DNA from: Bradyrhizobium lupini
GTDB lineage: Bacteria; Pseudomonadota; Alphaproteobacteria; Rhizobiales; Xanthobacteraceae
Assembly (NCBI RefSeq): GCF_040939785.1
Contig: NZ_CP162553.1
Span: 6,777,001 to 6,841,000, forward strand
Length of the DNA: 64,000 nt
Reading direction: 5' to 3'
Shown: in pieces, positions 6,722-35,674 of the stretch
Position numbering within the stretch: position 1 is the first letter of the stretch
How the letters are laid out: each line of letters opens with the position of its first letter
Translations under genes and position numbers: made by a program
The notes under the pieces: model-generated
Told to the model about the DNA's origin: nothing
Seen by the model: the letters and a program-made list of their open reading frames with translations, nothing else
The model's database searches: none

Positions 6722-6903
6722 CCGGAGGAGGGAGCTGGCGGCGGGGAAAGTGGGAATCTCTCCCCCGATGCCCCCAATGCGCGAAAATCCGCGGAAAACA
6801 AGGATTCCTAAAAAGCCCGGCCGAGTTTTGTGACCACCGGTGTGTACCACCTGTTCGGCCGATTCGGCCGTCAATCTCGGCCGATTTGGAGGCGAATGCG
6901 GAC

Positions 6904-7797
6904 CTAGTGCTGCAAGGCCAAGCCTTCCATGGCCTCCGCCAGCATCCAATCACGGAACGCCATCGCCGGCGCATTGCTCTCTAGCAACGGCGGATGAACG
7001 AGGAAGTGCGATAATGGCAGGCGGCAGTTATGGTCGGACAACCGGACCAATTTGCCGTTGAGCAGATCGGCGCGAGTGACCGAGCGGCGCGCGAGCGCAA
7101 TTCCTTGCCCGTCGATCGCCGCCTCCATCAGCAGATTCGCATCGGCGAAGGAGTTGCCGACGATCTTCCGGTCGATCTGCACTCCGAGCGATTTGAACCA
7201 GGTCGACCAGGGGACGTTCGGATCGATTAACAACCGCTCATTCACGAATGCCGACGGGTCTCGCGTGAACTGCCCTCCGTTGTAGCGCGGGCTGCAGACC
7301 GGGAAGATCTCCTCGTCCATCAGCCGGATGGCGTGAAGCCCCTTCCAGGTTCCGGTGCCGAGACGTAACGCGATATCGACCTTGTCCGACTTGAAATTGG
7401 CGAGTTGCCGATCCGACTTCACGTTGACGTGGATGTGGGGGTAATGCTCGTTGAATCGGGGCAAGCGCGGCAACAGCCAGCGGGCCGCCATCACCGGTAG
7501 CAAGCTCACCGTGACTTCGGCATCCATGGGGGAAGATCTCAGCGAAGTGAGTGCCCCGGTTAGTTCGGCTAACGAGCGCGCAACTCGATCATAGAGACGT
7601 CGCCCGTCCGGCGTGGGTACCATTCGGTGCCCCATTCGCTCGAAAAGCTTGATCCCGACCCGCTCTTCGATCTGCCGAATCCTTTGGCTTACCGCTCCAT
7701 GAGTGATGTGAAGTTCTTCAGCCGCTCTGGAATAGCTGCCATGACGAGCGGCGACCTCAAACACGCGCATGGCTTCGAGTGGCGGTAAACGGACCAT
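6904..7797 (-). CDS. LysR-family transcriptional regulator (GcvA-like)
   Basis: This 297-residue DNA-binding regulator has an N-terminal winged helix-turn-helix (AARHGSYSRAAEELHITHGA, VSQRIRQIEERVG), residues about 8-65. A type 2 periplasmic-binding-like effector domain follows (from about residue 85, LLPVMAARWLLPRLPRF). The start MVRLPPLEAM at 7797 is chosen because it matches the usual GcvA-like N-terminus; a TTG at 7833 would swallow the palindrome at 7806-7822. It is divergent from the MATE exporter gene at 7900, and LysR proteins commonly control the divergent neighbour. The effector is unknown. Confidence 0.85.
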   Translation of the reverse strand: MVRLPPLEAMRVFEVAARHGSYSRAAEELHITHGAVSQRIRQIEERVGIKLFERMGHRMVPTPDGRRLYDRVARSLAELTGALTSLRSSPMDAEVTVSLLPVMAARWLLPRLPRFNEHYPHIHVNVKSDRQLANFKSDKVDIALRLGTGTWKGLHAIRLMDEEIFPVCSPRYNGGQFTRDPSAFVNERLLIDPNVPWSTWFKSLGVQIDRKIVGNSFADANLLMEAAIDGQGIALARRSVTRADLLNGKLVRLSDHNCRLPLSHFLVHPPLLESNAPAMAFRDWMLAEAMEGLALQH

Positions 7798-7805
7798 TTT
7801 TAGAT

Positions 7806-7822
7806 TGTTAGTTTTGCTAACA
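7806..7822. promoter_or_regulatory. inverted repeat, candidate LysR operator
   Basis: TGTTAG and CTAACA form a perfect 6-bp inverted repeat with a 5-base spacer, and it includes a T-N11-A core as in LysR boxes. It lies between the divergent LysR and MATE genes, close to the regulator start, where an autoregulatory site is expected. Confidence 0.5.
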
Positions 7823-7899
7823 GAGCGTGTCAATTCATATGGTTGGGCCGCGTTCGGCGGCCGTGGTCATGTCGCTCTCTGCAACGAGAGGAAGTGATC

Positions 7900-9327
7900 G
7901 TGAACGGACCCGCGAATATCGCCGATTCAAAGCCGCACACGGCGCGCATGACGCTGCGCGATGACCGACTTGACGCGCTGCTAGGCCATCCGGTCGCCTT
8001 GACGATCCTCCGCTTGGCGGTCCCGAATTCGACCGTGATGCTCGTCCAGGTGCTGATGGGACTTCTCGAGGTTTACTTCATCGCAAAGCTCGGGCTCGAC
8101 GCTCTCGCCGGAGTGACGCTGGTCTTCCCGCTGCTCGCGCTTACCGTAGCGATCTCCCAGGGTGCGACAGGCGGTGGTATCGTCACTTCGGTGGCGCGGG
8201 CGCTAGGACGCGGCGAATTCGCCGAGGCAAGCTCCTACCCTTGGTACGCGATCGGGTTGGCGCTGCCGCTTGGATTGGCAACCACCGCATTCATGTATGG
8301 GCTGGGGCCCTTGATCTATCGTGCGATGGGCGGGCATGGCGCTTCGCTACAGATCTCCCTGCAATATTCGACGGTGGTCTTTGGCGGAGCGACGCTGATC
8401 TGGACATTCAACTTGCTGATGGCGGCGGTGCGCGGCACCGGAAACTTGCGACTGCCGGTCATTGTAGTGTGCTCAGGCGCAACGCTGCTGGTGCCGCTAT
8501 CACCGCTTCTGATTTTCGGCGGCTTCGGCATTCCCGCGCTTGGCCCAATCGGCGGTGGCGTCGCACTGTTGATCAACTACGCTCTCGGAACACTTGCCTA
8601 CGCAATCTACCTGTGGGGCCATATGGGCTTGTTGCGGCCTTCGCCAACCCCACCGCGCCTGGCGCTCGCGCCTGCCTTGACGATCCTCAAGATCGGCGGC
8701 GTCTCTGCCATCATCGCGGCGAGCACCAATGTAACGCTGACGCTTGTGACCGCTTACGTCGGCTCCCATGGTATCGCTGCTTTGGCAGGGTATGGCTCAG
8801 CCTCACGTCTAGAGTTCCTGCTTGTGCCGATCTCCTACGGTGTGGGCGGCCCGGTCGGCATGGTTGTCAGCGCCAGCCTTGGCGCCGGACTGATCGAGCG
8901 TGCGCGGCGCGCCGCCTGGACGGGCGCGGTTATAGGCGCTGCGGTGACCGCCACAATAGGACTCGTCGGCGCGCTGTTAGCGCGCCAATGGATCGGCCTT
9001 TTCAACGACGACCCCGCGACCATCCAGGCGGGCGTGCAGTACCTGCACGATGTCGGCCCCTTCTTTGGGTTCTTCGGTCTCGGCTTTGTGCTGTACTGTG
9101 TAGGCCAAGCCACCCGGCGGCTCGCGCCTTCGCTGCTCGGAGCTCTGACCCGCGCGCTGATCGCTGCTGCGGGCGGTTATCTGCTGCTACGCTGGAATGC
9201 GAGTCTCGACCTGAACTTTTTCGCAGTCTCTGCTGGGATGATGGCGTTCGGGTTGATACCGCTTTCTAGTCTGATGCAGCGCGTTGGCTTCGAAGCCGAT
9301 GATATCTCCAGCAAGAGAACCAGATAG
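7900..9327 (+). CDS. MATE family efflux transporter
   Basis: This is an inner-membrane multidrug/toxic-compound exporter of 475 residues with about 12 hydrophobic segments in two homologous halves. Examples are FPLLALTVAISQGATGGG in the first half and LIPISYGVGGPVGMVVSASL-like sequence in the second. It would export cationic drugs or metabolites using an ion gradient. The start is GTG 7900, because GAGAGGA lies 7 bases before it; an upstream GTG at 7894 is too close to the Shine-Dalgarno. The gene is probably controlled by the divergent LysR regulator. It is intact and of normal family length. Confidence 0.85.
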   Translation: MNGPANIADSKPHTARMTLRDDRLDALLGHPVALTILRLAVPNSTVMLVQVLMGLLEVYFIAKLGLDALAGVTLVFPLLALTVAISQGATGGGIVTSVARALGRGEFAEASSYPWYAIGLALPLGLATTAFMYGLGPLIYRAMGGHGASLQISLQYSTVVFGGATLIWTFNLLMAAVRGTGNLRLPVIVVCSGATLLVPLSPLLIFGGFGIPALGPIGGGVALLINYALGTLAYAIYLWGHMGLLRPSPTPPRLALAPALTILKIGGVSAIIAASTNVTLTLVTAYVGSHGIAALAGYGSASRLEFLLVPISYGVGGPVGMVVSASLGAGLIERARRAAWTGAVIGAAVTATIGLVGALLARQWIGLFNDDPATIQAGVQYLHDVGPFFGFFGLGFVLYCVGQATRRLAPSLLGALTRALIAAAGGYLLLRWNASLDLNFFAVSAGMMAFGLIPLSSLMQRVGFEADDISSKRTR

Positions 9328-9484
9328 TCCGCCGGCAAGAACCGACCGGAGCCGCAATCACACTCGCCCCCGACACTCTTGGCTCCCTCATACCTTCGAC
9401 TGCATTTTTCCCGGAAGCTTAACATGCCTGAATCCCCAGCCGGCAAAACCGGGCTACGCTACCCCTTTCCCTCTGGGGCGCCTC

Positions 9485-9685
9485 ATGTTTGATACGGAGA
9501 CAACCGCGCTTTTGCGCGCGGTCCTGGACGACGTCTGCGAAAGCGTTTCGCACCGCGAGATTGGAGCACGGACTCACGTCGCTTCGAAAATCCTGGAGGC
9601 CGCCACCAGAGGCGAGGTTTCGCCCGATGGGCTAAGGCGGGTCGGCCACGACGCGCTGTCCCGTGCACCCACGATGTGGCGCTGA
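9485..9685 (+). CDS. small conserved-type hypothetical protein
   Basis: This 66-residue protein starts MFDTETTALLRAVLDDVCES. It is a mostly helical, acidic-to-neutral small protein with VASKILEAATRGE in the middle, ending SRAPTMWR. Small proteins of this composition are common in Bradyrhizobium genomes (recollection, not checked). No function is known. It precedes a second small gene by 16 bases. Confidence 0.6.
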   Translation: MFDTETTALLRAVLDDVCESVSHREIGARTHVASKILEAATRGEVSPDGLRRVGHDALSRAPTMWR

Positions 9686-9701
9686 TTGATCCGGAGGGGG
9701 C

Positions 9702-10124
9702 GTGAATTTCCAGGTGACGGTCCTCAAGATCCTGGTGAGCTATCCGGACGGCTTCGCCGTGATGGAGGACCTCAAGCGCGACATGGCGATCCTGGCGACC
9801 AGCGGTCGCGACTGGGCGGACCGGACCAAGCGCCTGGCCGCGCGGGTGCCCGATCTCGACATCTTTTCGCACCGGCTGGTCGAACGGATCGTTGGCGGGT
9901 GGAAGATCACGGCAAAAGGACGGGCAGTGCTCGAGTTCATGGAAGCCCGCCCCGCTGCGACCGAACCGATCCAGGCGCCTTTGGTCGAGGAGGCTCCGGC
10001 GCCGATAGTCGCTGCGACGCAGGTTGCTCCGCTGCGGCAACCCGCTGACCGTGCCAAGCGGCGCCGCGAACGTCGCGAACGGCGGCGCGAGGCGCGCGAA
10101 CGAGCGAGGGCGAGCGCCTCCTGA
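9702..10124 (+). CDS. hypothetical protein with Arg-rich tail
   Basis: This 140-residue protein starts with GTG 9702 behind GGAGGGGGC. Residues 1-85 (VTVLKILVSYPDGFAVMEDL ... VERIVGGWKITAKGRAVLEF) look like a winged-helix domain: helix, helix, then a beta wing. An Ala/Pro linker follows, then a run of about 25 residues made almost only of Arg, Glu and Ala. It could be a small DNA-binding protein. No named family is assigned. Confidence 0.6.
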   Translation: MNFQVTVLKILVSYPDGFAVMEDLKRDMAILATSGRDWADRTKRLAARVPDLDIFSHRLVERIVGGWKITAKGRAVLEFMEARPAATEPIQAPLVEEAPAPIVAATQVAPLRQPADRAKRRRERRERRREARERARASAS

Positions 10125-10481
10125 AGTGTCCTACAGCGCCGGCAACGCGCGAAAAGAGGAGGACGGGACCCGAACCCGCGCGGTATCGCCAGCCGCTACC
10201 GCTCCGGCGGCCCTGACCACGCCCAGCACCCCGCATTTGAATGGAGGGCCCGTTTCCGCCGACGAGAGCAACTGTCGTTTCAAACCGGAAGCGTTTAGCT
10301 CCGCGCTGCAATATCGGCGGAGAGCGGCTCCTTCCGCCGGCCTTGTGCTGAGGGGACGCTTCCTTGCTTCCTTGCTTCCTTGCCGCCTTGCCACCTTGCA
10401 CCGCATCTTAAAAAAGGTGCGGCCTTAGCAGAAACAATCCGTCGCTCGCTCGGTTGAGGAGAATTGCCACGAGCATATGAC
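10125..10481. other. intergenic region with hairpin and octamer repeat
   Basis: The region has no convincing gene. On the minus strand around 10155-10215 there is a GCGGTA/TACCGC hairpin followed by a T-arm-like GCGGG-TTCGGGT-CCCGT. There is no matching acceptor stem, so it is not called a tRNA. The octamer repeat at 10358-10397 follows, then the leader of the next gene. Confidence 0.4.
10358..10397 (+). repeat. five-copy octamer tandem repeat
   Basis: Three exact GCTTCCTT units are followed by GCCGCCTT and GCCACCTT, all in register at 8-bp spacing. The array lies about 85-120 bp before the start of the secreted protein gene at 10482, so length change could alter promoter spacing. Confidence 0.6.
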
Positions 10482-10922
10482 ATGCGTAAGTCAGCTTCAG
10501 CGACCGTTCTGTTCCTCTCCTCTTTCCTAGTCGCCGGCTTCGCCCTTGCTCAACAACCCGAGACTGCACCCGGCTCGAACGAGACCCAGACGACTCCTGT
10601 TCAGCCGGACCGTACGCCGCAGCAGTCCGATCAGGCGCGCGAGAGGGAGCGTAAGGCCGCTGAAGATACCCGCGTTAAGCGTGACTGGACAACACAGCGC
10701 GATGAGGATCGCACGGGTATGGACCGCATGCGTCAGCAGCATATGGGACGTATGATGGAAGATATGGACCATCGCACCACGGGCGGCAATTGGCGGACGC
10801 AGCGCGATGATGAAGATATGGACCGTCGCTCGCGATTCCGCGATGAGGATCGGCCGCGTCGCCGCGTCAAAATCTGCTTTGAATATGAAAACGGCGACGA
10901 ATTTTGTCGTTACCGCGAGTGA
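10482..10922 (+). CDS. secreted charged low-complexity protein
   Basis: This 146-residue protein starts MRKSASATVLFLSSFLVAGF, with a clear Sec signal peptide cleaved after ALA (about residue 24). The mature part is very rich in Arg, Asp, Gln and Met, with short repeats of the type WRTQRDDEDMDRR and QRDEDRTGMDRM. It ends in a different segment, VKICFEYENGDEFCRYRE, with two cysteines that could form a disulfide. It is probably periplasmic or surface-associated. GAGGAGA lies 20 bases before ATG 10482, which is long, and a TTG at 10464 is too close, so the start is not certain. No named family. Confidence 0.65.
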   Translation: MRKSASATVLFLSSFLVAGFALAQQPETAPGSNETQTTPVQPDRTPQQSDQARERERKAAEDTRVKRDWTTQRDEDRTGMDRMRQQHMGRMMEDMDHRTTGGNWRTQRDDEDMDRRSRFRDEDRPRRRVKICFEYENGDEFCRYRE

Positions 10923-11430
10923 GTTGAACGGACGCGCTGTTCTCACGTAACGGTCGCCGCTCCGGTGTCGGGTTGCGTCCTGGTCAGTTGCGAGGTCCCT
11001 TGAGGATGTTACGCATCCCGTTCTCACCCCAGCCTTGGCTCCGCTGGAGTGGCCGTGCCTCGCGGCTCTAAGGGGGTCAATGTAGATGCTTCCATGAGAA
11101 CCGCTGATCTCGCAGCTCCCTTCGTGATCAGTTGTGGAACGCGCATCCAATTCGAGCCGAGCTCGACAGCTCCTTCTCCGAGCGCCGGATCGTCGCCTGC
11201 GTGCCGATAGGAGCACTAGACTACCGCGATCGCGGTCATCTGCTCGGCCTTGAACCGGCAGCCGATCGGTCATCCTACGAATGCTGCCTTCTCGGCCCCC
11301 GAGGTAGTTCCCGCGCCCCTCTGTAAGGGACTTCTCGCGATGCGTGAGGTTCTGGAGCAGTGTGTGCCTACATTGTATCTTTGGGGCCTCTGTGACGTCG
11401 CGGTAGGGCCATGGGGTTCATGCGTCACAC
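10923..11430. other. intergenic stretch, nothing assignable
   Basis: Several short frames exist on both strands, but none has a ribosome binding site together with natural composition. This may be decayed sequence leading into the PAS-like fragment. Confidence 0.35.
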
Positions 11431-11613
11431 CAGGTCACCAACAACAAGGCCGCGACTGAGCCAGAGGTATTTCACCTCGCGCCGGTGAGCTTGGCCATCC
11501 TCGATGCGGATCTGAGATATGTTTGTTGCGACCACCTCCTGGCAGAGATGTGCGGAACGCCAGTGTTTGGCATCGAATGTCCGGCTTGGGTCAAGGCGGC
11601 TGTCGGCCCCTGA
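11431..11613 (+). pseudogene. PAS-domain fragment
   Basis: An open stretch without a start codon encodes FHLAPVSLAILDADLRYVCC followed by DHLLAEMCGTPVFGIE and then a stop. The pattern 'aPvslaiLDadLRYv..n..LAem.G' is the first part of a PAS sensor domain as found in histidine kinases and diguanylate cyclases. Nothing before or after continues it, so it is read as a remnant of a signalling gene. Confidence 0.45.
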
Positions 11614-11717
11614 GTGGGACGACTTCCACTCTACCTATCGCTCCAGGCCTACCGCTGCGGTTTGCCAGCGGCGATGGGCAACACGCGACGCCACCGACGC
11701 GCGACGCAACGCCGCCG

Positions 11718-12099
11718 CTACCGAAGCGGGCGGGACCGGCTGAACAAGAAACGGCTGGGAGTGAACTTTCGGGCTACTGCGAGCGCGCTGCCCTCGCACG
11801 TTTCGAGCGCGATCTTCTGGGCCAGCATGACGTCTCCAATCGGAAAGGTCGCCAACGGGCAGGAAACACAAGCCGATCCTTGGACGGCCGTTTTCGCCGA
11901 CCTCGCAGACATTCGCAGCCGCTCCCGCATAGATTCTGTAGCGGTTGCCCGTGTCGCCACCGATTACCTCGAAATAACCCTTCTCCGCGAATTGCCGCCG
12001 TTGGACAGGCGAGAGGTAATGCCGCAGCAGCAGCAGCGCGCGTCCTTCCGGAGTGCTCTCGGCGCCGTGTCTAATGAACAGCGCCTTTGCAGCCCTCAT
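11718..12099 (-). pseudogene. small conserved-type protein, frame broken once
   Basis: From ATG 12099 the product reads LLRHYLSPVQRRQFAEKGYF, then GGDTGNRYRIYAG and GRPRIGLCFLPVGDL. Removing one base from the TTT (minus strand, 11844-11846) continues into PIGDVMLAQKIALETCE and FTPSRFLFS, with a stop at 11718. The join restores VGDLPIGDVMLAQKIALE, which reads as one domain of about 127 residues. I recall similar proteins in bradyrhizobia (LLR.LSP.QR ... GNRYRI ... MLAQKIALE) with no known function. The next gene upstream on this strand starts at 12374. Confidence 0.5.
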
Positions 12100-12152
12100 C
12101 CGTGAGCGTTCATCCGGCCGCGACGGCCTGAACAGCCACACGGCTCAGCAAT

Positions 12153-12374
12153 TCAGCCGCCGACCAGCCGGGGGAAGAAAAGAGTTTCTTCCGCCGTGGG
12201 GTCGAACGATCGGATCTGCGACACCTGACCTGAACCGGTCCGGACCGCAGCGGTGAAGCCGACGTTCGTCAGCTCGCGGAACCGCTGCTCCGCCTTGGCT
12301 AATTCTCGTGCATCGTCCGAGTCGAAGAAGTGACGGCTGTCGCCGGTACTGTCCATCACGGTCTGGATCGGCAT
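12153..12374 (-). CDS. small conserved-type hypothetical protein
   Basis: This 73-residue protein starts at ATG 12374, with AAGGAGGG 6 bases upstream, a strong site. It begins MPIQTVMDSTGDSRHFFDSD and has a central FRELTNVGFTAAVRTG. It ends with IRSFDPTAEETLFFPRLVGG, a tail form (rFDP...tlF.P.l.GG) that I recall from many short rhizobial proteins of unknown function. It lies 53 bases upstream of the frame-broken gene on the same strand and may be co-transcribed with it. Confidence 0.7.
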   Translation of the reverse strand: MPIQTVMDSTGDSRHFFDSDDARELAKAEQRFRELTNVGFTAAVRTGSGQVSQIRSFDPTAEETLFFPRLVGG

Positions 12375-12907
12375 GCGGATCCCTCCTTGTTGATCATGAC
12401 AGAATATTGTTGAAGCTCCGCAGTTCCTCGATCGCAGCAAAGCTACTAGCTTTCGCGCCTCGCAACCTAGGCTTCGGTATGGTTGTACGCAGATGGCCCG
12501 CAAGCCGGGGCGCAGCTTTTTGGACTTCGGCGAACAGCATCAGCCCGCCACAGCGTCACCGGATATGGCCATTGGTCGAAAGTTGGTCCGCATCCTTCAA
12601 GGTGATCGAGATGGCAAAGCCGAATGCCGCAACCAGTTCGGTGGCTCGCGACGTAGTAGCGGAGCAGGGCTGGGGGCGTGGACGGTATCCAGCAGCTTGC
12701 GCGAAGTTCGGCGGAGCTTCAGCGTTTCTGACTCAACAGGTTCCGGGCTCTTGTGCGAGGATTTGGAACTTGGCGGCCTAAGAGGCCGTCGTCGCACCGG
12801 GCCTCGGCAGTGAAAGAAGAGCAATCTGTGAATTAGCTCATTTAAGGTTGAAGGAAGCCGTGTCTTAACACTCAGGCGAGTCCGAGGATTGCACCAGGAG
12901 ACGGGCA
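12375..12907. other. intergenic region before the GMC-GH13 operon
   Basis: Open frames on the + strand between 12480 and 12815 have no ribosome binding site and unnatural composition. The promoter of the operon presumably lies in the last 100 bases, which include CAGGAGACGGGCA directly before ATG 12908. Confidence 0.4.
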
Positions 12908-15376
12908 ATGCCAATCACTACGGAAACGACCTCGTTCACCAAAGACATTCAAGGCCGCTATCTCTGCAACAATCTCGCGGAAGTTGATGCCTGGAAATCC
13001 GCAGGCGGGCGTCCGTTCGATTTCATCATCGTGGGAGGCGGGACGTTCGGTTCTGCGATGGCTGAGCATTTGTGGTTCCGCCAGAAACAAACGGGTGGCG
13101 GATTGAGGACGCTGGTCGTCGATGCCGGGATGTTCACCGTCCCTGAGCATGTTCAGAACACGGGGATCCAAGGGTTTGCCGATCCGGCTAATCCGTTCCT
13201 TTTGAACGAAAGCCTGCCGCAGCCGGAGCCCCCACGCAACGAGGTCTGGGGAATTCCATGGAAGTCGACTATTCCCTTCAAAGGACTAGCGTACACGCTC
13301 GGGGGCAGATCGCTCTATTGGGGCGGTTGGTCGCCTCGTCTGCTGGACGAGGAGATGTTGGGTTGGCCCGCAAACACCGTAGTCGATCTGAACAGCCGCT
13401 ATTTCGATGAGAGTTCTCGCCAGATCGGTGTCGACGAGGCGAACGACTTCATTTTCGGCGAATTGCAGAATGCGCTGCGTCGCCGGCTCTTCGACAGTTT
13501 GTCGAGCGTGCCCGGAGCGTTCGCGCTCGACGCGCTCCCGCCATCTCCGCTGCTGAAGTCGGGCGCCGACCCCGCACAGTTGCTTGGCCTGTCGTCGAGC
13601 GGCGGACTTTCGCAAAACGACCTCCTAAACCTGCTGAAGCTGGAAGCGCCGCTGGCTGTGCAGGCGCGCCCGCCACACGCGGGGTTCTTCCCGCTGAACA
13701 AGTTCAGCGTCGTTCCGCTGCTGATGAAGGCGGCTCGGACTGCGGCGAGCGACTCCAACGGCAATGATTCGGTCAAGGAATTCATGGTGCTGCCCGACAC
13801 GCATGTGCTGACGCTGCGCAGCGTCCCCACCGCGGCAGGGACCTGGCGCATCTCAGGCATCGACACTAGTCGAGGTCCGATAGATCTGGCACCCGGTGGT
13901 GCCGTTGTCATCGCGCTCGGCACGATCGAGAACGCGCGGCTGGCTCTCGCATCGTTCGATGCCACCGGACTTCCGACCCTGTCGCTCATCGGCAAGAATC
14001 TGATTGCGCACCTTCGCTCGAACCTTGTCATCCGCGTGCCGCGGTCGGCGATTTCCGGGCTTTCGCCGGCGGTGAACGAGCTGCAGACTGCGGCCCTGTT
14101 CGTGAAGGGACGGGCAACGCGCCCGAATGGTGATCTGATCGGCCACTTCCACCTTCAGATCTCCGCGAGCGGCGGCGGCAACACCAGCGGCGCCGAGGAC
14201 GAGCTCTACCGCAAGGTGCCCGACGTCGACTTTTTCGATCAGCTGAAGACCTCGACCGACACGCATGTCGCAATTGCAATCAGAGGGCTCGGAGAGATGG
14301 AGCCCGCCGATCCGGCCAATCCCGCCGCTCATCCAGGCCGCGTCGATCTGAGCTCGCGGACAGACGAATACGGCGTTCGTCGTGCATCGGTTGCGCTGAC
14401 ACCGACGCAGCGCGATCAGGATCTCTGGGCCGTCATGGATGCGGCGATGCAAAAGGTCGCCGCCGTCTTGGCCAACGGTCAGCCCATGCAGGTGCTCCAG
14501 AGCAACCAGGACGGGCTCGGGACGACCCATCATGAAGCCGGGACACTTTGGATGGGCACCGATCCGACCACGAGCGTCACGGACGGCAACGGACGCTTCC
14601 ATCACACCGAGAACCTGTATGCGGCCGGCCCGGCGCTCTTCCCGAGCATCGGTTCGCCCAACCCGATGCTGACCGGGATAGCGCTCTCGCGCCGCACCGG
14701 CGACCTGATCATGACGCCTCCTGCCTTCGCGGCCGAGGCGGGTTTCGAGACGCTGTTCGATGGCACCTCTCTCGGGGACTGGACAATGTCGATGATCAGC
14801 AACCAGCCCGGCCGGGACGACCCTGGCTCGTTCCGGGTCCGGCGCGGGGTTCTCGAGGCACGAACGGGGACCGATCTGGGGCTGCTCTGGCTGAAGCGCC
14901 GGACGCCGCCTCGCTATGTTTTGCGGCTGCAATGGATGACGACGGCGCCGGACGACAATTCGGGCGTCTTCATCGGCTTCCCGGACCCCCGGAACGAGGG
15001 CTACGACAACACGGCCTATGTCGGCGTCAACTTCGGCTTCGAGATTCAGATCGACGAACTGGCCCGGCCGGACAATGCGCCCATCCACAGGACGGGTGCG
15101 GTCTACTCCTTCAAGGGGCCGACCGACGGTCCGCTGACGGTCCATCCGGTGGGAGAATGGAACAGCTATGAGATCACCGTCGATGGTGCCGACATCACCG
15201 TCGCGCTGAACGAGCAGACGGTGAACATTTTCCATTTCGCGGGCGATCCGCAGTCCCCGCGCCGCGGGCTGCCGTCCACCGCTCAGGACCCGCGCTTCAT
15301 CGGCCTGCAAACTCATACGGGTCGCGTGCTCTTTCGCAACATTCAGTGGAAGTCGTTGGAGGGTCTCGTGGCATGA
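12908..15376 (+). CDS. GMC-family FAD oxidoreductase fused to a DUF1080 (3-keto-glycoside hydrolase-type) domain
   Basis: This 822-residue protein has two enzymes in one chain. Residues about 36-610 form a GMC flavoprotein. The FAD-binding dinucleotide motif is FDFIIVGGGTFGSAMAE, and the catalytic C-terminal pair is the His in THHEAGTLWMG and the Asn in SPNPMLTGIAL. Residues about 620-822 match the DUF1080 jelly-roll domain, starting FETLFDGTSLGDWTM, with DDNSGVFIGFPDP and a final GRVLFRNIQWK. GMC enzymes include glucoside 3-dehydrogenases, and some DUF1080 proteins cleave 3-keto-glycosides. A fused oxidise-then-cleave enzyme is therefore a reasonable inference, but the substrate is unknown. 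No signal peptide is visible, so it is cytoplasmic. The Shine-Dalgarno is AGGAG. Its stop overlaps the GH13 start. Confidence 0.8.
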   Translation: MPITTETTSFTKDIQGRYLCNNLAEVDAWKSAGGRPFDFIIVGGGTFGSAMAEHLWFRQKQTGGGLRTLVVDAGMFTVPEHVQNTGIQGFADPANPFLLNESLPQPEPPRNEVWGIPWKSTIPFKGLAYTLGGRSLYWGGWSPRLLDEEMLGWPANTVVDLNSRYFDESSRQIGVDEANDFIFGELQNALRRRLFDSLSSVPGAFALDALPPSPLLKSGADPAQLLGLSSSGGLSQNDLLNLLKLEAPLAVQARPPHAGFFPLNKFSVVPLLMKAARTAASDSNGNDSVKEFMVLPDTHVLTLRSVPTAAGTWRISGIDTSRGPIDLAPGGAVVIALGTIENARLALASFDATGLPTLSLIGKNLIAHLRSNLVIRVPRSAISGLSPAVNELQTAALFVKGRATRPNGDLIGHFHLQISASGGGNTSGAEDELYRKVPDVDFFDQLKTSTDTHVAIAIRGLGEMEPADPANPAAHPGRVDLSSRTDEYGVRRASVALTPTQRDQDLWAVMDAAMQKVAAVLANGQPMQVLQSNQDGLGTTHHEAGTLWMGTDPTTSVTDGNGRFHHTENLYAAGPALFPSIGSPNPMLTGIALSRRTGDLIMTPPAFAAEAGFETLFDGTSLGDWTMSMISNQPGRDDPGSFRVRRGVLEARTGTDLGLLWLKRRTPPRYVLRLQWMTTAPDDNSGVFIGFPDPRNEGYDNTAYVGVNFGFEIQIDELARPDNAPIHRTGAVYSFKGPTDGPLTVHPVGEWNSYEITVDGADITVALNEQTVNIFHFAGDPQSPRRGLPSTAQDPRFIGLQTHTGRVLFRNIQWKSLEGLVA

Positions 15377-17247
15377 ACCTGATGCCACTCGGATCCTTGG
15401 GCGCCGTGGAAAGCAACGGCGCGGTGACGTTCGGACTCTGGATGCCCTGGGTGTCGGCGGCCGACGGCAACGTCGTCACCGTGAAGATCATCCATGAGGC
15501 GGACCAGTTCCTGCAGGAGATGCCGGCCCGGGAGTTTCGGCTGGCGCACAGCGTTCGTGCTCCATATGGCGACTTCTGGTCGGTCACGGTCCCCGTCGCC
15601 GGGACGCCGCCCGCGGTGCCGGGCTCGGCCTGGGGCAGTCCGGGTCGCTATGTCTATCGCTACACCATCACCAACCCGAACGTCGGAACGCTCGACTGGA
15701 TCGTCGACCCATTTGCGCGCGAGTTCGGTGTCGGCAGGCAATCCGCCTTCACTCTGGGCTACCAGCCCTACCTCTGGAGTGCCGGCGAGGCGCAATGGCG
15801 AACGCCCGCGCTGGCAGACCTGATCCTGTATGAGGTGAACATCGCGGAGTTTGGCAACGACCTCGACCGGGCTCGCGGGCTGGTCGCCTACCTCGCCGAC
15901 CTCGGGATCAACGTCATCGAGATCATGCCGCTGTCCAACGTCGGCAACTCGGTCGATTGGGGCTATCTGCCGATCGGCTATTTCGGCGTCGACGAGCGTT
16001 TCGGCAAGCGGTCGGATTTCCAGCAGCTAGTCGACATCTGCCACCAGCACGGGATCGCGGTGATCGTGGACGTCGTCTATGGCCATACGGGCGTGGATTT
16101 CCCGTACTACGACGCCTACACGCGGCTGCGGTACCGCGATAATCCGTTCATGGGGCCGTTTGCCAAGGACTACTTCAGCAACTTCGGCAAGAGCACGGAT
16201 TTCAATCGGGAGATCACGCGGGACTACTTTTTTACGGCCAATCACCATTGGCTCGAAGTCTATCACGTCGACGGCTTTCGCTACGACTGCGTTCCGAACT
16301 ACTGGGACGGGCCGATGGGCGTGGGCTATGCGAGCCTGGTCTATGAGACGCACCAGCTGACCAGGGCGAACATCGCGGCGGGTCGCCCGTACTGGAGCCG
16401 CTTCGACGCAGGCGCCGGCAAGCCGGTGACCCTCGTGCAGATGGCCGAACAGCTCGAAGCTCCGGAGGAGGTGCTGCGCTCCACCTATTCCAACTGCACC
16501 TGGCAGAACGGCACCTACGGCGCGGCACGCGCGGTGGCCCAAGGGGATCGCGGCCGGCTCGCCGACCTCGGTCTGCAGCTTGGTCTCTTCGGCTACCCCG
16601 ACCGGGAGACCGTCAACGGCGACGCCATTCCCAAGACAGCGCTTCAATATGTCGAGAACCACGACCACGAACGCTTCCTGTGCAACTTCGGCACCTCCAA
16701 TCCGGACGAAGCCGGCAATCCGCTGTTCGCCGAGGGCGACCGGGCGCGCTGGTACATGCTGCAGCCCTATTTGATCGGCCTGCTGATGAGCAAGGGGATT
16801 CCGATGCTCTGGCAAGGCGAGGAATTCGCCGAAAACTATCATCTGCCCGATTTCGGAATGGGCCGCGTCTCTCTGCTGCGGCCATTGCGCTGGGATTTCT
16901 TCTACGATGAGTCCGGCCGGCCGATCGTGAGCTTGGTCCGCAAGCTACTGCGAATTCGGCGGCAGCGCGACCACATTCGTCAGGGCACGTACTTCTTCTT
17001 CAATGACTGGGACCGGTATCAGCAGTTCGGTGTTCTTCTGTTCGCCCGCTACGATGGCGGTCGCTACACCTTGGTGGCCGTGAATGTTGGCGATACCGAC
17101 CGGACCGTACCGTTCTGGTTTCCGATAGGCGGGGATTACGTCGAAGAGCTGCATGGCGGCGCTCTAGATCTGGGGAACGTGCCTTCGCTTCAGCGAATAG
17201 ATCTGAATATCCCATCGCACTATGGACGGATCTGGACGTTGACGTAG
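15373..17247 (+). CDS. GH13 alpha-amylase-family enzyme (TreZ/branching-enzyme-like)
   Basis: This 624-residue protein starts at ATG 15373, overlapping the upstream TGA as ATGA, with GGAGGG inside the upstream gene. An N-terminal beta-sandwich (about residues 15-130) precedes a TIM barrel. The four GH13 regions are visible: VIVDVVYGHTG (I), VDGFRYDCVPNYW with the nucleophile Asp (II), VQMAEQLEAPEEV with the likely acid/base Glu (III) and YVENHDHERF (IV). MLWQGEEFAE and the E-set domain resemble maltooligosyltrehalose trehalohydrolase or branching enzymes, but the exact reaction cannot be fixed from sequence. Tight coupling to the GMC-DUF1080 protein suggests a shared glucan or trehalose-type substrate. 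Confidence 0.8.
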   Translation: MNLMPLGSLGAVESNGAVTFGLWMPWVSAADGNVVTVKIIHEADQFLQEMPAREFRLAHSVRAPYGDFWSVTVPVAGTPPAVPGSAWGSPGRYVYRYTITNPNVGTLDWIVDPFAREFGVGRQSAFTLGYQPYLWSAGEAQWRTPALADLILYEVNIAEFGNDLDRARGLVAYLADLGINVIEIMPLSNVGNSVDWGYLPIGYFGVDERFGKRSDFQQLVDICHQHGIAVIVDVVYGHTGVDFPYYDAYTRLRYRDNPFMGPFAKDYFSNFGKSTDFNREITRDYFFTANHHWLEVYHVDGFRYDCVPNYWDGPMGVGYASLVYETHQLTRANIAAGRPYWSRFDAGAGKPVTLVQMAEQLEAPEEVLRSTYSNCTWQNGTYGAARAVAQGDRGRLADLGLQLGLFGYPDRETVNGDAIPKTALQYVENHDHERFLCNFGTSNPDEAGNPLFAEGDRARWYMLQPYLIGLLMSKGIPMLWQGEEFAENYHLPDFGMGRVSLLRPLRWDFFYDESGRPIVSLVRKLLRIRRQRDHIRQGTYFFFNDWDRYQQFGVLLFARYDGGRYTLVAVNVGDTDRTVPFWFPIGGDYVEELHGGALDLGNVPSLQRIDLNIPSHYGRIWTLT

Positions 17248-17457
17248 GCGCGCGGGGCGAACTGCCGTCTCCATCGGCCTGTTCGCGTTCGGCTTCGGGA
17301 CTGTATTCCGAATTCCGAAAGCACTGTGATCGACTGATTATGCGGCAGGCGTGCAGGGCCTTCGCCCTGCTAACCGGCGCGGACACTTTGACTTGGGCTG
17401 AGCTGTGAGCTGGTCACGCCTGTAGCGCTGATAAGACAGCCCACTTTGTGCGACCGG

Positions 17458-28464: not shown

Positions 28465-29208
28465 TCAGGTCTTTCGGGCGGATTGCCGGGTTCGGCGCAG
28501 GCTCTCACCGGTGAGGTCGAGCCGATGGGCATTGTGGACGAGGCGATCGAGCACGGCGTCGGCATAGGTGGGATCTCCAATGAGCAGATGCCACTGGTCC
28601 ACGGGGAGCTGGCTGGTGACGATGGTGGAGCGATGACCGTAGCGATCTTCGAGGATTTCCAGGAGGTCGTGACGGGCACCGGCGTCGAGCGGCTCGAGTC
28701 CCCAATCATCGAGGATCAGCAGATCGACACGGCCAAGGCCGCGCAACAGGCGTGGATGGCGGCCGTCGCCGCGGGCGAGCGCCAGATCGTCGAACAGTCG
28801 CGGGACGCGCTGATAGAGCACGGAGCGATTGTCGCGACAGGCCTTGTGGCCGAGCGCCGAGGCGAGCCAACTCTTGCCAACGCCGGCCGGGCCGCAGATC
28901 AGGAGATTGACGTGGTCGTCGATCCAGCGGCCCTCGACAAGCTTAGCGAACAGCGGGCGGTCGAGACCGCGCGGGGTGCGGTAGTCGATGTCCTCGACGC
29001 ACGCCTGCTGGCGCAGCTTGGCGTAGCGCAGGCGAGTGGCGAGCCGTTTGTCGTGCCGCAGCGAGGCTTCACGTTCGAGCAGCAGCGCAAGCCATTCGGT
29101 GTGACCGAGGCTTGCGGCCTCACCGGTGGCTTCGATGTCGGCGAAGGCCTTGGCCATGCCGTGGAGGCCGAGGGCGTTGAGGCGGTCGAGGGTCGGATGG
29201 GTGAGCAA
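28465..29208 (-). CDS. istB: IS21 helper ATPase IstB
   Basis: This 247-residue AAA+ ATPase assists the IstA transposase in target capture. The Walker A is LLICGPAGVGKSWLASALGH, the Walker B is RVDLLILDDWGLEPL, and sensor 1 is STIVTSQLPVDQWH. The start is the TTG at 29208 (LTHPTLDRLNALGLHGM), placed behind AGGAG that overlaps the istA stop; no ATG fits. The frame is intact. It stays open upstream into out-of-frame istA sequence, which makes an artificial 790-residue frame. Confidence 0.85.
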   Translation of the reverse strand: MLTHPTLDRLNALGLHGMAKAFADIEATGEAASLGHTEWLALLLEREASLRHDKRLATRLRYAKLRQQACVEDIDYRTPRGLDRPLFAKLVEGRWIDDHVNLLICGPAGVGKSWLASALGHKACRDNRSVLYQRVPRLFDDLALARGDGRHPRLLRGLGRVDLLILDDWGLEPLDAGARHDLLEILEDRYGHRSTIVTSQLPVDQWHLLIGDPTYADAVLDRLVHNAHRLDLTGESLRRTRQSARKT

Positions 29209-29219
29209 GGGATGATCTC

Positions 29220-30774
29220 CTAATTGTAGTAGCGCGGTCCGCGGATGTTGGCATGCAGGATCGGCGCATCGTCCGCGGAACGCTGGTGAGCAGAACGCCG
29301 ATCGAGATTGTTGGCGAGGATCGACTTGACCGAGCCATAGGTGCGCGCGCCGATGTCGATTGCCCGCGCAGCCGCGGCGTCCAGCCGTTCGCGCCCATAG
29401 GAGGCGGCGAGCCTGAGGATGCCGAGGCAGGCGCGGAAGCCTTGCTCGGGGAGCGAGCGCTCGTCGAGAATGAGGTCGCACAACGCGCTGGTCGCCGGCC
29501 CGATCGCGGCGGCGTCCTGGCGGATACGCGCGATGGTCCAGCCGGCGTAGCGCCGATGGCTGGAGGCCATGTGCTCCGGCACGGTGGTGTGTTTGTGATT
29601 GCCGCTCATGCGCTGATGCGCGGCGATCCGCTCGCCCTTGTGGAAGATCTCGACGGTACGGGCCGTGAACCGCACCTCGACCTCGGCGCGGGCGAAGCGA
29701 TGCGGAACGCTGTAGTAATGCTTCTCCACCTCGACGTGGTAATCGAGACTGACGCGGCGGATCCGCCACTCGGCGAGGACATAGGGGGGACGCCGGCAAT
29801 GGCTTAAGCGCCGGCCGGTCGACCTCCTCGAGCAACCGGCGGCGTGTCACGCCGAGCCGCCGGATCGGCCGTTCCTCATTCAGCCTCGTGAGCAGTTCGC
29901 CGATCGCCGCATTGACCTCGGCCAGGCTGTAGAAGGTGCGATGGCGCAGGCGGCCGAGCAGCCAGCGCTCGACGATGAGGACGGCCTGCTCGACCTTGGC
30001 CTTGTCGCGCGGCTTGCGCGGCCGCGCCGGCAAGATGGCGGTGCCGTAATGCGCCGCCATCTCCGCGTAGGTACGATTGATCTGCGGGTCGTACAGGCTC
30101 GCCTTAATGACCGCGACCTTGGTGTTGTCGGGCACCACCAGCGCCGGTATGCCGCCGATCGCCGCGAAGGCGCCAACATGGGCGCTGATCCAGTCGGCGA
30201 GCCCCTGCGTCCACGTCGCCTGCGCGTAGGTGAAGCTCGATGCGCCGAGCACGGCGACGAAGATCTGCGCCGTTCTGCGCTCACCGGTCAGGCGGTCGAC
30301 CACCACCGGCACGCCATCGCCGGCATAGTCGACGAACAACTTGTCGCCGGCCGCATGGGCCTGGCGCATCGTCACCGACAGGCGGTCCTCCCAGGCGCGG
30401 TAGAGCTCACAGAAGCGCGAGTACCGGTATCCGCCGGGCTCGGTGGCGATATATTCCTCCCACAGGATCGACAGCGTCACGTGCTTGCGTTTGAGCTCGC
30501 GGTGCACGGTCGCCCAGTCGGGCTCGGCGATGCGGCGGTGACCCTGACGGTTGCCATTGCCGGTCTTCGCGAACAGGCGAAGTTCCAGAACCGTGTCGGT
30601 GACGTCGTCTGGCAACGGCCAGCTCAAGCCCGCGGCCTCGAACCGCCGGAGCGCCAGGCGCACCGTCGAGGGCGCCGCGCCCACCCGTCGCGCAATCTCG
30701 CGGCTCGGCAGCCCGGCCGCCTTCATTCTGATCACATCGCGCACACGGCGCATCGCAAGCCTCTCCGTCGGCAT
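29220..30774 (-). pseudogene. istA: IS21 transposase IstA, frame broken once
   Basis: From ATG 30774 (MPTERLAMRRVRDVIRMKAA) there is an N-terminal helix-turn-helix (GLPSREIARRVGAAPSTVRL). An rve/DDE integrase core follows: KLFVDYAGDGVPVVVD (first Asp), ALVVPDNTKVAV (second Asp) and RDKAKVEQAVLIVERW (Glu). At the C6 run (plus-strand G6 at 29784-29789) the frame breaks. Removing one C gives LPASPYVLAEWRIRRVSLDY, then HYYSVPHRFARAEVEVRF and the normal end RGPRYYN at 29220. The corrected length is about 518 residues, normal for IstA. If the break is real, the element cannot transpose by itself. Confidence 0.8.
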
Positions 30775-30978
30775 CCAGGGTCCCCTTCGCAAAGCCGAAA
30801 GAGTTGACCCTATGGGAGCCAGAAGAGGCCTCGTCACCCGGGCGACATCATCCCGGAATGGTGGGCGACATCATTTCGGAACGGGTGGGCGACTTCAAAT
30901 CGGAATGGTGGGCGAGATCATCTCGGAATCCTGGGCGACATCGATCGGAATCCGCAAATTGTATTCTGGACGGCGCTC

Positions 30979-31500: not shown

Positions 31501-32214
31501 TCAGCTCGTACGCCGGACGCGGAGCTTCCGAAAATGCCCGTCAGTGCCGTTGTCGACATAGAGCCCAACGCTGCCGTGCGCGTCCGGTCCGTGCTTCAGA
31601 TCGTTGACGATCAAAGCTGGTTGCAAAGCATCGCCGACAAACAGCCTTGCGGTGTTATCTTTTACCTCGATGCGCACCGGCGTCCATTCGCCCGGACTCA
31701 AGTCGACGTAGGACTCGTATTGGCCCGGTGCCTCGCGGCGGAGGCGAGCAAAGTCGTAACCTGGATACGCGAAATACTGCGTTGAGTGATTGCGCCGAAC
31801 TTGGTCCTCCGCACGGCCGTTGGTCGGGCGCACGTAAATGCCCTCGGTGGCAAAGGACCCATCACTTGTCTGGACCCGAAACACCACCCCAACGAACCCG
31901 CGCGCTCCTGGAGGTGCGTCGGGAAGTGGGCTACCGGCAAGTTCGATCTCGATGGTGCCGTTATGAAAGTCAAAGCTGGGCACGAAAGCAAAGGTGTCTA
32001 TGTCCGGAGCAGCGCCCGAGACAAGGCGGCGAACCTCGAGCGCCGGACTGCCCCGGTAATCGACCGCCTTCACCGAGACGTTTCGTGCCGCAACCTGTGC
32101 CGCGTCATCGAGGGGGAGAAAGAACTCGGGCCCTCCCAAAGAAGACGCGTCAATCGCGGTTAATGCGGCCGCAGTGCAAGCAATGACACTCACAGTAGTC
32201 ATTCTGGCAAACAT
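31501..32214 (-). CDS. secreted concanavalin-like (DUF1080-like) beta-sandwich protein
   Basis: This 237-residue protein starts at ATG 32214 behind GAGGGA. A signal peptide is present (MFARMTTVSVIACTAAALTA). The mature part has the jelly-roll pattern of lectin/glucanase-like domains: FDFHNGTIEIELAGSPLPDA, RGFVGVVFRVQTSDGSFATE, GEWTPVRIEVKDNTARLFVG and GSVGLYVDNGTDGHFRKLRV. It is related in form to the DUF1080 domain at the end of the 12908-15376 protein. It probably binds or acts on carbohydrate in the periplasm. It ends 28 bases from the convergent membrane-protein gene. Confidence 0.7.
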   Translation of the reverse strand: MFARMTTVSVIACTAAALTAIDASSLGGPEFFLPLDDAAQVAARNVSVKAVDYRGSPALEVRRLVSGAAPDIDTFAFVPSFDFHNGTIEIELAGSPLPDAPPGARGFVGVVFRVQTSDGSFATEGIYVRPTNGRAEDQVRRNHSTQYFAYPGYDFARLRREAPGQYESYVDLSPGEWTPVRIEVKDNTARLFVGDALQPALIVNDLKHGPDAHGSVGLYVDNGTDGHFRKLRVRRTS

Positions 32215-32480
32215 AGTTGTCCCTCGACATTTTGGACGATTGCGTCCGTAAGACACCTAAAGATTTTTGCGTTCGGCCCCCCTCAATTGTGTGGCAGCCA
32301 ACAAGCCGCGCCAGGGACGCACCCAGATCCGTGATCGCCGGTGCGTCCCAGTGCGCTCATGCTGAGCTTACGCGACAGGACGGGGTCAACCAGTCAAAGG
32401 TCCGTTAGAGTTACAGGGCCCCTGTTGGTCTGCTTAGCTATGCTGCTATGCTGCAATATCCGTTAGAGGAGAAGCCGCTG

Positions 32481-33461
32481 ATGATGAACCGCAACTTCGT
32501 CGCCGCGCTGGTCACGTTTGGCCTGGCCTTGCCCGCTGTCACCCGAGCGGAGGACGCGCCGGTCGAGGAGCAGATCGTCAACCAGATGAACAAGGTATTC
32601 GGCGTCCACGCTGGATTCCGTGCCAATCACGCCAAGGGGGTCGTGGCCGAGGGGAAGTTTAAGGCATCTCCGGAAGCTGCCGGCTTGAGCAAGGCCGTGC
32701 ATTTCGGCGGCACCGACATCCCGGTGACGGTGCGGTTCTCGGACTCCACGGGAGTACCAAATCTGCCCGACGGATCGGATGACGCCAATCCGCATGGCAT
32801 CTCGGTGAAATTTCACCTGCCCGACGGCAGCGACACGGATATCGTGATCAATTCGCTGAAATTCTTTCCCGTCGCGACCAGCGAGGCGTTTCGCGACCTG
32901 CTCGTCGCAATCGCGCAGAGCCCGCCGGACGCGGCCAAGCCGACGAAGTTTGAGCAGTTCGTGGCAAGCCACCCCACTGTCCCGGCTGCCTTCGCCACGG
33001 TCGCCACGCCGAACAGCTTTGCTAACGAGGCCTACTTCGGGATCAATGCGTTTGTGTTCGTCAACAAAGGTGGTCAGCGACAGGCCGTTCGCTACCAGAT
33101 GATTCCCGAGAAGCTCGTGCACCTGGACAAGGCGGAGGCTGCGAAGATGACGCCGGACTTCCTGATGGAGGAGCTGCCCTCACGACTGAAGCAGGGGCCG
33201 GTGACCTTCCGGTTCAAGGCGCAACTCGCTGCCGCCGGCGACTCAACCAAGGACCCATCGAAGCCCTGGCCTGATGATCGCAAGCTGGTGGATCTTGGCG
33301 TGCTGACGATCGACAAAGCCGTGGCGAACAGTGAGGAGGCGCAAAAGAAGCTCCTGTTCCTGCCGGGCCAACTCACCGACGGGATCGAGCAGTCCGATGA
33401 TCCAATGGTGGATGTCCGCAACGCCGCATATGCCATCTCGTTCTCGCGGCGCAATCCCTGA
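32481..33461 (+). CDS. small periplasmic catalase-family peroxidase (SrpA-like)
   Basis: This 326-residue protein starts at ATG 32481 with GAGGAG upstream. A signal peptide (ALVTFGLALPAVTRA-ED) sends it to the periplasm. The reduced catalase core is recognisable. The distal His lies in GVHAGFRANHAKGVVAEGKF, substrate-channel residues in VRFSDSTGVPNLPDGSDDAN and PHGISVKFHLP, and a possible proximal heme Tyr is in the final NAAYAISFSRRNP. It lacks the flavodoxin and long-arm domains of full catalases, as is usual for the SrpA/mini-catalase group, which act as peroxidases. It would use heme and H2O2. It is intact. Confidence 0.8.
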   Translation: MMNRNFVAALVTFGLALPAVTRAEDAPVEEQIVNQMNKVFGVHAGFRANHAKGVVAEGKFKASPEAAGLSKAVHFGGTDIPVTVRFSDSTGVPNLPDGSDDANPHGISVKFHLPDGSDTDIVINSLKFFPVATSEAFRDLLVAIAQSPPDAAKPTKFEQFVASHPTVPAAFATVATPNSFANEAYFGINAFVFVNKGGQRQAVRYQMIPEKLVHLDKAEAAKMTPDFLMEELPSRLKQGPVTFRFKAQLAAAGDSTKDPSKPWPDDRKLVDLGVLTIDKAVANSEEAQKKLLFLPGQLTDGIEQSDDPMVDVRNAAYAISFSRRNP

Positions 33462-33837: not shown

Positions 33838-35674
33838 GTGTCCGGGATTGAGGATTACGCGCTTATCGGTGATTGCGAGACCGCGGCCCTGGTGGGCCTC
33901 GACGGTTCCATCGACTGGCTTTGCTTGCCGCGTTTCGACTCGGACAGCGTGTTCGCCAAGCTGCTCGGCGACGAGAACAACGTGATCCGACCGGATGAAC
34001 AGCATTCAGCCTGCCGCCGCTACCGGCCGGGATCGTTGATCCTCGAGACCACCTTCAGGACCGCTAGTGGTCGCGTGCGGCTGACCGACTTCATGCCCCC
34101 CAAGGTGAACGGTTCGAAAATCGTCCGGATCGTGGAAGGGCTCGAAGGGACTGTCGAAATGTGCACCGAACTGGTTGCGCGCTTCGACTACGGCGTGACG
34201 GTGCCCTGGACGAGTCGTCTGCATGACGGCGCGCTGAGCGCCGTCGCGGGTGCACACATGCTGGTGCTCAGGACCGTAGTTGAATTGCGGGGCAGAATCC
34301 GAGAAAGCGATCGGCTCGTTTTCCGTTAGGGCCGCCCAGAAGGTGACATTCGTGCTGTCGTACCAGCCATCCTACCTCCGCCCGGAGAAGCCTATCGATC
34401 CGGAGGACGCCCTCAGCGAGACGGACCGCTTCTGGGGTGATTGGTCCGGGCGCTGCAACGAGGCTGGCCCTTATTCGGATGCCGTCCTGCGGTCGGTCAT
34501 TACGCTGAAGGCGCTAACGTTCAGGCCTTCCGGCGGGATCGTAGCAGCGGCGACCACTTCGCTTCCCGAGCAGATCGGCGGATCGAGGAATTGGGACTAC
34601 CGCTTCTGCTGGGTTCGCGATGCGACCCTGACCCTCCTGGCTCTCATGGGCGCCGGCTACTACGACGAGGCGCGCCGCTGGCGAGATTGGCTCTTGCGCG
34701 CCGTCGCCGGGAGCGCGACGCAGCTTCAGATCATGTACGGCGTCACGGGCGAGCGCCGCCTCACGGAATGGGAAGTCCCATGGCTCGCCGGGTTCGAAGG
34801 GTCCAAGCCCGTTCGCATCGGTAACGCGGCACACGCGCAGCTCCAGCTAGACGTGTACGGCGAACTCATGGACGCGCTGTACCAGGCCCGTCGCGGGGGA
34901 CTTCGCGAAAACAAGCGGGCCTGGCAGATTCAATGCGCGCTCCTTCACCATCTCAAATCGATCTGGACCGAGCCGGACGAAGGTATCTGGGAGGTTCGGA
35001 GTGGCCGGAAGCATTTCACGCATTCCAAGGTGATGGCCTGGGTCGCCTTCGACCGCGCGATCAAGAGCGCCAGCGAGTTCGGCATGGAAGGCCCTGTCGA
35101 CGAATGGAAGGAAGTCCGAGCCGACATCCACAACGATGTCTGTAGGCGCGCCTTCGATCCGGAGCGTAAATCGTTTGTCCAAGCCTACGGGGAATCTCAA
35201 CTTGACGCCAGCCTGCTCCTGATTCCGGCCGTCGGCTTTCTTCCGCCGGAAGATTCCCGCGTGATTTCCACGATCTCCGCCATCGAGCGGGATCTTGTGA
35301 CCGAGGGCTTCGTCCGGCGCTACGATACCGCTTCGACCGACGACGGCTTGCCGCCAGGAGAGGGCATGTTTCTGGCTTGCAGCTTCTGGCTCGCGGACGC
35401 CTACCACATGGTCGGCCGGCATGAGGACGCCGTAAAGCTGTTCGAGCGCCTTGTAGGTCTCTGCAACGACGTTGGGCTGCTGTCCGAGGAATATGACGTC
35501 TCGCGGCGCCGGCTGGTCGGAAATTTCCCGCAGGCGTTCTCGCACATCGCGCTGGTCAACACGGCGCACAACCTGACGCACGTCGAAAAGCCCTCGAACC
35601 AACGCGGCGGCAGAAATGCAGCCGCACAGCCAGTGACGAAACCGGATGGCGTGCCCGGAGGAAAACATGGATGA
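33838..35674 (+). pseudogene. GH15 glucoamylase/trehalase-family hydrolase, frame broken once
   Basis: The start is GTG 33838 (SGIEDYALIGDCETAALVGL, DGSIDWLCLPRFDSDSVFA), the usual GH15 start. Removing one G from the G4 run at 34289-34292 continues VVELRAESEKAIGSFSVRAA into the main catalytic part. That part contains GGSRNWDYRFCWVRDATLTL (active-site W and RD), RLTEWEVPWLAGFEGSKPVR, LDASLLLIPAVGFLPPEDSR and GEGMFLACSFWLADAYHMVG. The corrected length is about 611 residues, normal for bacterial GH15. It would release glucose from alpha-glucan or trehalose, and no signal peptide is seen. The stop overlaps the next start by 8 bases, so the SDR gene is translationally coupled. The break may be a sequence error. 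Confidence 0.75.

Follow-up and report, generated by a model that had tools for sequence, protein, structure and literature searches.

The window analyzed here is a 64,000-nucleotide stretch of Bradyrhizobium lupini contig NZ_CP162553.1 (positions 6,777,001 to 6,841,000). It contains a gene that joins a GMC flavoenzyme to a 3-keto-disaccharide hydrolase domain (PF06439, formerly DUF1080) in one chain. A GH13 gene overlaps the end of this fusion gene, and both lie within a segmental duplication (Table 1). The fusion open reading frame (ORF) starts with the ATG at 12908, and an AGGAG ends 7 bases upstream of it.

Pfam profile searches bear out the original prediction that the chain is a GMC–DUF1080 fusion, with both matches in one ORF. 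PF05199 (GMC_oxred_C) matches residues 477-593 with 62.4 bits (cut-off 24.6), and PF06439 matches residues 612-815 with 106 bits (cut-off 26.8), covering profile positions 1-187 of 187. No match of the fusion to GMC_oxred_N is listed at E 1; the N-terminal half is diverged. No signal peptide was seen on inspection by eye. In alignments with 8qve, 9fl2, 7dve and 6a2u, His542 and Asn585 occupy the His and Asn positions of the GMC C-terminal motif. The corresponding catalytic pair of PsG3Ox is H440 and N484 (PMC10646112).

Table 1. Features of the fusion locus (window coordinates)
Feature	Position	Strand	Basis or detail
Fusion gene, 822 aa, GMC flavoenzyme + 3-keto-disaccharide hydrolase (DUF1080) domain	12908..15376	+	ORF listing, Pfam
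GMC part, residues 1-601	12908..14710	+	GxGxxG G43/G45/G48, GGRSLYWGGWSP motif 132-143, His542, Asn585
PF06439 domain, residues 612-817	14741..15358	+	N684-S685-G686, E712-x-Q714, Y733, W751-N752, Q801-x-H803
GH13 gene, 624 aa, Asp/Glu/Asp triad	15373..17247	+	ATG 15373; ORF listing start GTG 15346
ATGA overlap, fusion stop TGA (15374-15376) with GH13 ATG	15373..15376	+	Sequence
Segmental duplication, ~10.5 kb	6737..17256		Second copy G000:C1 about 6086284-6096746

Conservation and relation to known enzymes

Conservation was scored on a 249-row alignment of the window protein, 240 listed homologues and 8 loci; the rows are related and the counts are not independent. The GMC His/Asn pair named in the original prediction is kept almost throughout (H542 in 247 rows, N585 in 246), as are the GxGxxG glycines (at least 241). 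The same holds for the DUF1080 half, both in its first stretch (N684 247, S685 246, G686 247, E712 246, Q714 246, D716 245) and later (Y733 246, W751 246, N752 245, Q801 246, H803 243). NSG, Y733, W751-N752, Q801 and H803 match the solved hydratase AL2 (8v31) directly. E712 and Q714 align with the Glu and Gln of 4hxc, 3nmb and 3imm, while the pairwise 8v31 alignment is off by one at these two residues. D716 is aligned in some comparisons with solved DUF1080 proteins and not in others. The concern that the DUF1080 part might lack the active-site residues of its relatives thus found no support, with the limit that these positions were scored as conserved, not as catalytic.

On average, columns are 71% conserved in the GMC half and 73% in the DUF1080 half, and the stretch between them (positions 599 to 613 of the window protein) is 11-13 residues long in 235 of 246 rows. 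Selection was measured on 14 fusion genes, using only pairs with dS <1.5 in both domains. This set leaves out the second copy in this genome, same-record duplicates, the distant loci L013, L014, L035 and L042, and also L012/L043. For the 58 pairs of 91 that qualify, median dN/dS comes to 0.061 (GMC half) and 0.065 (DUF1080 half). The GH13 gene has a median of 0.077 (10 genes, 30 of 45 pairs). Judged by these alignments, both halves are constrained, under similarly strong purifying selection, and kept joined.

With a model of the whole fusion as query, all of the best 50 Foldseek rows are sugar-oxidizing GMC enzymes; a few pyranose 2-oxidases account for many of these rows through their various chains or mutants. 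The rows comprise pyranose oxidases, C-glycoside oxidases (7dve, 8qve), 7qva with mangiferin, and fructose, glucose and cellobiose dehydrogenases. A profile search with the fusion likewise gives sugar enzymes in its first seven GMC rows. The VIA-align listing for the GMC part does not set sugar enzymes apart from choline oxidase. For the DUF1080 part alone, rows 1-18 of the best 50 Foldseek rows are DUF1080-type structures (E 4.8e-9 or better; the next is at 4.6e-7). These include the 3-keto-2-hydroxy-glucal-hydratase 8v31/8tda, the 3-keto-glycoside eliminase/hydratase 8rr2/9fbe, and 3osd (BT2157), which PMC9007349 gives as a 3-ketotrehalose hydrolase. The original prediction was that the DUF1080 part could cleave 3-keto-glycosides. 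The domain is present at full length, but a simple hydrolase is less apt, as the functionally titled structures are eliminase/hydratases.

The best Foldseek class is the bacterial pyranose oxidase/C-glycoside 3-oxidase group (8qve, 9fl2, 7dve, PsG3Ox 7qf8/7qva). It has the GMC fold and the His/Asn pair in common with the fusion, and its GG-x-W-x-P stretch aligns with the GGRSLYWGGWSP of the fusion. However, identity is only 14-21%, the fusion scores 36.1 bits with the pyranose_ox equivalog TIGR02462 against a curated cut-off of 544.9 bits, and the DUF1080 domain is extra. The DUF1080 eliminase/hydratases (BT2157 3osd, 8tda, AL2 8v31, 8rr2, 9fbe) are single-domain PDB chains of ~265-281 residues. 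Two DUF1080 chains bear the molecule name ‘Probable secreted’, whereas the window domain sits behind a flavoenzyme that has no signal peptide.

Sets of several proteins are known that cleave glycosides after first oxidizing them. LacA of the LacABC set is of the GMC type. A non-Koshland glycan pathway of gut bacteria, said to have been described in Nature in 2024, reportedly follows the same logic of oxidation and elimination/hydration, with Gfo/Idh/MocA enzymes and a DUF1080 hydratase. Its oxidoreductase is said to be NAD-dependent and to re-reduce the product too; in that place the fusion would use a flavin GMC enzyme. Two multi-protein sets are described in PMC9007349 and PMC10628242. In the former, mutant fitness data suggest a joint role of the LacABC dehydrogenase and DUF1080 proteins in Caulobacter lactose use. 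This would put a C3 sugar dehydrogenase and DUF1080 in one pathway, like the fusion, but as separate genes with membrane-bound and periplasmic products instead of one chain. The latter shows that Agrobacterium oxidizes plant glucosides at C3 before elimination, using an Mn enzyme that is unrelated.

Distribution and the GH13 partner

Two protein searches gave 1993 and 2901 matches at E 0.001. Both Pfam domains are present in 235 of the 240 homologues listed (three lack a listed PF05199 and two lack PF06439), so the pairing of GMC with PF06439 is not chance. Some homologues already bear the database name ‘3-keto-disaccharide hydrolase/GMC oxidoreductase’. The fused form, unfamiliar to the original prediction, is therefore widespread and in part already labelled as such in databases, but no published description of a GMC–DUF1080 fusion was found in the open-licence papers searched. 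It is apparently unstudied, and scattered in occurrence. Among the named sources are Nitrospira, Nitrosospira, Archangium, Polyangiaceae, Methylococcales, Solirubrobacteraceae and Pyrinomonadaceae.

The fusion is found in 14 of 242 Bradyrhizobium genomes, one of which (G037) has no more than a decayed piece. The family of Nitrosospira briensis (G630) has it in 16 of 120 genomes, some as partial matches. In a phylum sample of 398 genomes it occurs only in the genome of the window. The phylum of a Deltaproteobacteria metagenome-assembled genome (MAG) has it in 1 of 247 genomes, the MAG itself, and the phylum of a Bryobacteraceae MAG in 2 of 247, where the partial copy of the MAG was missed at the threshold used. 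One Bradyrhizobium genome (G143) has two very unlike fusion copies (L034 8514-10982 and L035 8306-10927), 95% and ~36-42% identical to that of the window. Decayed fusion or GH13 genes occur in relatives (L041, L043, L039, G188). A Bradyrhizobium elkanii plasmid relative (L049) was considered as a stand-alone GMC gene, an uncertain reading given the IS256 at its 5' end.

The GH13 gene matches PF00128 with 74.3 bits (cut-off 22). Its start at ATG 15373 is preferred on account of the exact ATGA overlap and of the partner ORFs in L009, L011 and L036, which start at the homologous place (query residue 10). The GTG start would add nine residues with no counterpart in these three partners. The triad motifs RYD, AEQ and NHD are present in all 10 partners compared, a set without the broken G147 gene, the remnants and the second copy in this genome. 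Among the best 25 of 39 NCBIfam rows, no equivalog (TreZ, GlgB, GlgX or others) reaches its cut-off; the best is TreZ, at 121.3 bits against 538.8. By sequence, the solved structure closest to it is 8dge (E 3e-31).

The 14 Bradyrhizobium genomes hold 16 fusion copies. A GH13 gene lies directly behind 10 of these (one, in G147, is broken), a 79-residue remnant behind one (L039), and none behind five. Searching 235 Bradyrhizobium genomes at E 1e-60 found GH13 in 10, nine of them adjoining the fusion and one a fragment only (G188); no intact GH13 without the fusion was found. Outside Bradyrhizobium, the pair also occurs on the predicted conjugative plasmid p1 of Rhizobium leguminosarum OyaliB (fusion and GH13 74% and 79% identical) and in the Deltaproteobacteria MAG (75% and 76%). 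GH13 was not seen beside the Nitrobacter copy or at 14 loci of the Nitrosospira family. Since the pair is patchy across fusion loci, we regard it as a unit of two genes that belongs to a single clade and is optional for the fusion family as a whole; the unit is probably mobile. The ATGA overlap in the original prediction is confirmed, with a GH13 partner in only some members of the family. A Nostoc plasmid GH13 gene near a 30% fusion relative is not counted here as another case of this pairing, being only 27% identical to the GH13 protein of the window.

In the 7.83 Mb home genome, the duplicated block includes a MatE gene, a LysR-type gene and the fusion/GH13 pair. Its copies are mostly 99-100% identical up to about 16200. 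In the 3' part of GH13 (16.2-17.1 kb) identity falls to 88-92%, which would fit recombination in one copy at this place. Gapped intervals lie near 10.2-10.5, 11.4-11.7 and 12.3-12.6 kb. Both copies of the block are open, and the fusion copies differ at one of 822 residues.

Proposed activity and alternatives

Fusion of two enzyme classes is a classic hint of consecutive steps. Our reading, held with slightly better than even confidence, is an enzyme that cleaves glycosides oxidatively with a single chain in the cytoplasm; from its sequence, the fusion is predicted to work by GMC oxidation followed by DUF1080 elimination/hydration. The FAD domain would oxidize a glycosyl hydroxyl, most likely at C3 by analogy with its family, using His542 and Asn585. 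Electrons from FAD would go to O2 or another acceptor. After the short joining stretch, the DUF1080 domain would receive the 3-keto-glycoside, eliminate the aglycone and hydrate the glucal intermediate (net hydrolysis), and a 3-keto-sugar would be released. In one clade the next gene overlaps or abuts that of the fusion, and its GH13 enzyme probably forms the alpha-glucoside to be oxidized or trims it. A cytoplasmic location is likely given that no signal peptide is seen by eye and no small-subunit gene lies nearby. A gluconate-2-dehydrogenase-3 small subunit (PF13618) was rejected as a partner: there are two in the genome, the nearest ~67 kb off and outside the window.

The DUF1080 part could instead serve for carbohydrate binding alone and keep a glycan close to a GMC sugar oxidase or dehydrogenase, with sugar ends oxidized and no bond cleaved. 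We consider this unlikely. The PF06439 match is specific, nearly every row keeps the residues that solved DUF1080 proteins have in common, and purifying selection on this half is as strong as on the GMC half. It is less likely still that the GMC part oxidizes a non-sugar alcohol, as choline or alcohol oxidases do, or an aglycone, while the DUF1080 part has another glycoside as its substrate, so that the steps are not consecutive on one molecule. The fold and profile matches to sugar enzymes stand against this, as does a glycan-type fusion partner in 235 of the 240 listed homologues.

The patchy presence in Bradyrhizobium (14 of 242 genomes), the decayed fusion in G037, the broken or remnant GH13 genes in G147, G150 and G188, and the location inside a recent duplication would all fit a mobile passenger block that is decaying and has no present function in this strain. 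With both home-genome copies open, the fusion copies differing at a single residue and dN/dS about 0.06, this reading is very improbable.

To return to the single-chain enzyme, we regard the fusion as real and conserved, and its two-step activity as plausible from the domains and residues it carries. A more far-reaching version is tentative, and we rate it below even. It would make the fusion a complete oxidative (non-Koshland) glycosidase, all in a single chain in the cytoplasm, whose domains hand on the reactive 3-keto-glycoside from one to the other. The gene would have spread horizontally among soil bacteria and chemolithoautotrophic nitrifiers, one lineage being operon-locked with a substrate-supplying GH13.

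If true, a single purified protein of the one-chain form would be enough to address substrate range, electron acceptor and channelling. At least 235 listed protein clusters of this architecture, of which many currently go by choline dehydrogenase-like or family 16 glycoside hydrolase, would also gain a function, and one would have to ask what the fusion oxidizes in nitrifying autotrophs.

Gene neighbourhood

No neighbour gene is common to every fusion locus examined. Upstream of several Bradyrhizobium copies lie genes for DUF1259, a DUF1080/laminin-G-like protein (~220 aa, signal-like start) and an HbpS-like protein. At L008 (7706-9826) these three adjoin and have signal-like starts, and the trio recurs in part near the fusion. 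DUF1259 is within 8 kb of 10 of the 16 Bradyrhizobium copies (9 of 14 genomes), beside the Nitrobacter copy (L016) and near 3 of 14 Nitrosospira-family loci. We did not accept it as a functional partner: this is association only among related loci whose counts are not independent, it is near neither home-genome copy, and it occurs in 147 of 235 Bradyrhizobium genomes.

OsmC, MsrA and a DyP-like protein are found near other fusion loci. Such peroxide-handling neighbours would fit an oxidase that makes H2O2, as an uncontrolled association among related loci. At L064-L067 genes of a single cluster (OsmC by Pfam in L066) adjoin the fusion, and L064-L066 have an NhaA-type antiporter with a thioredoxin-like domain (Pfam, L066). 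Upstream of the fusion on the Rhizobium plasmid (L045 4298-11668), ABC transporter-like ORFs (permease, binding protein, two ATPases) and a metallo-hydrolase were identified by eye.

A promoter and terminator scan found one of each, against expectations of 0.8 and 3.7, and was uninformative. Elsewhere in the window, a stand-alone DUF1080-like protein (31501-32256; 26.7-27 bits, cut-off 26.8) is back to back with a catalase-family gene (32448-33461), both with signal-peptide-like starts. A GH15-like gene (34280-35674), ~17 kb from GH13, overlaps a short-chain dehydrogenase gene (35646-36527). IS21-type integrases and IstB-like ATPases are usually separate genes, but a single 790-aa ORF at 28465-30837 combines the integrase (HTH, rve) with the ATPase.
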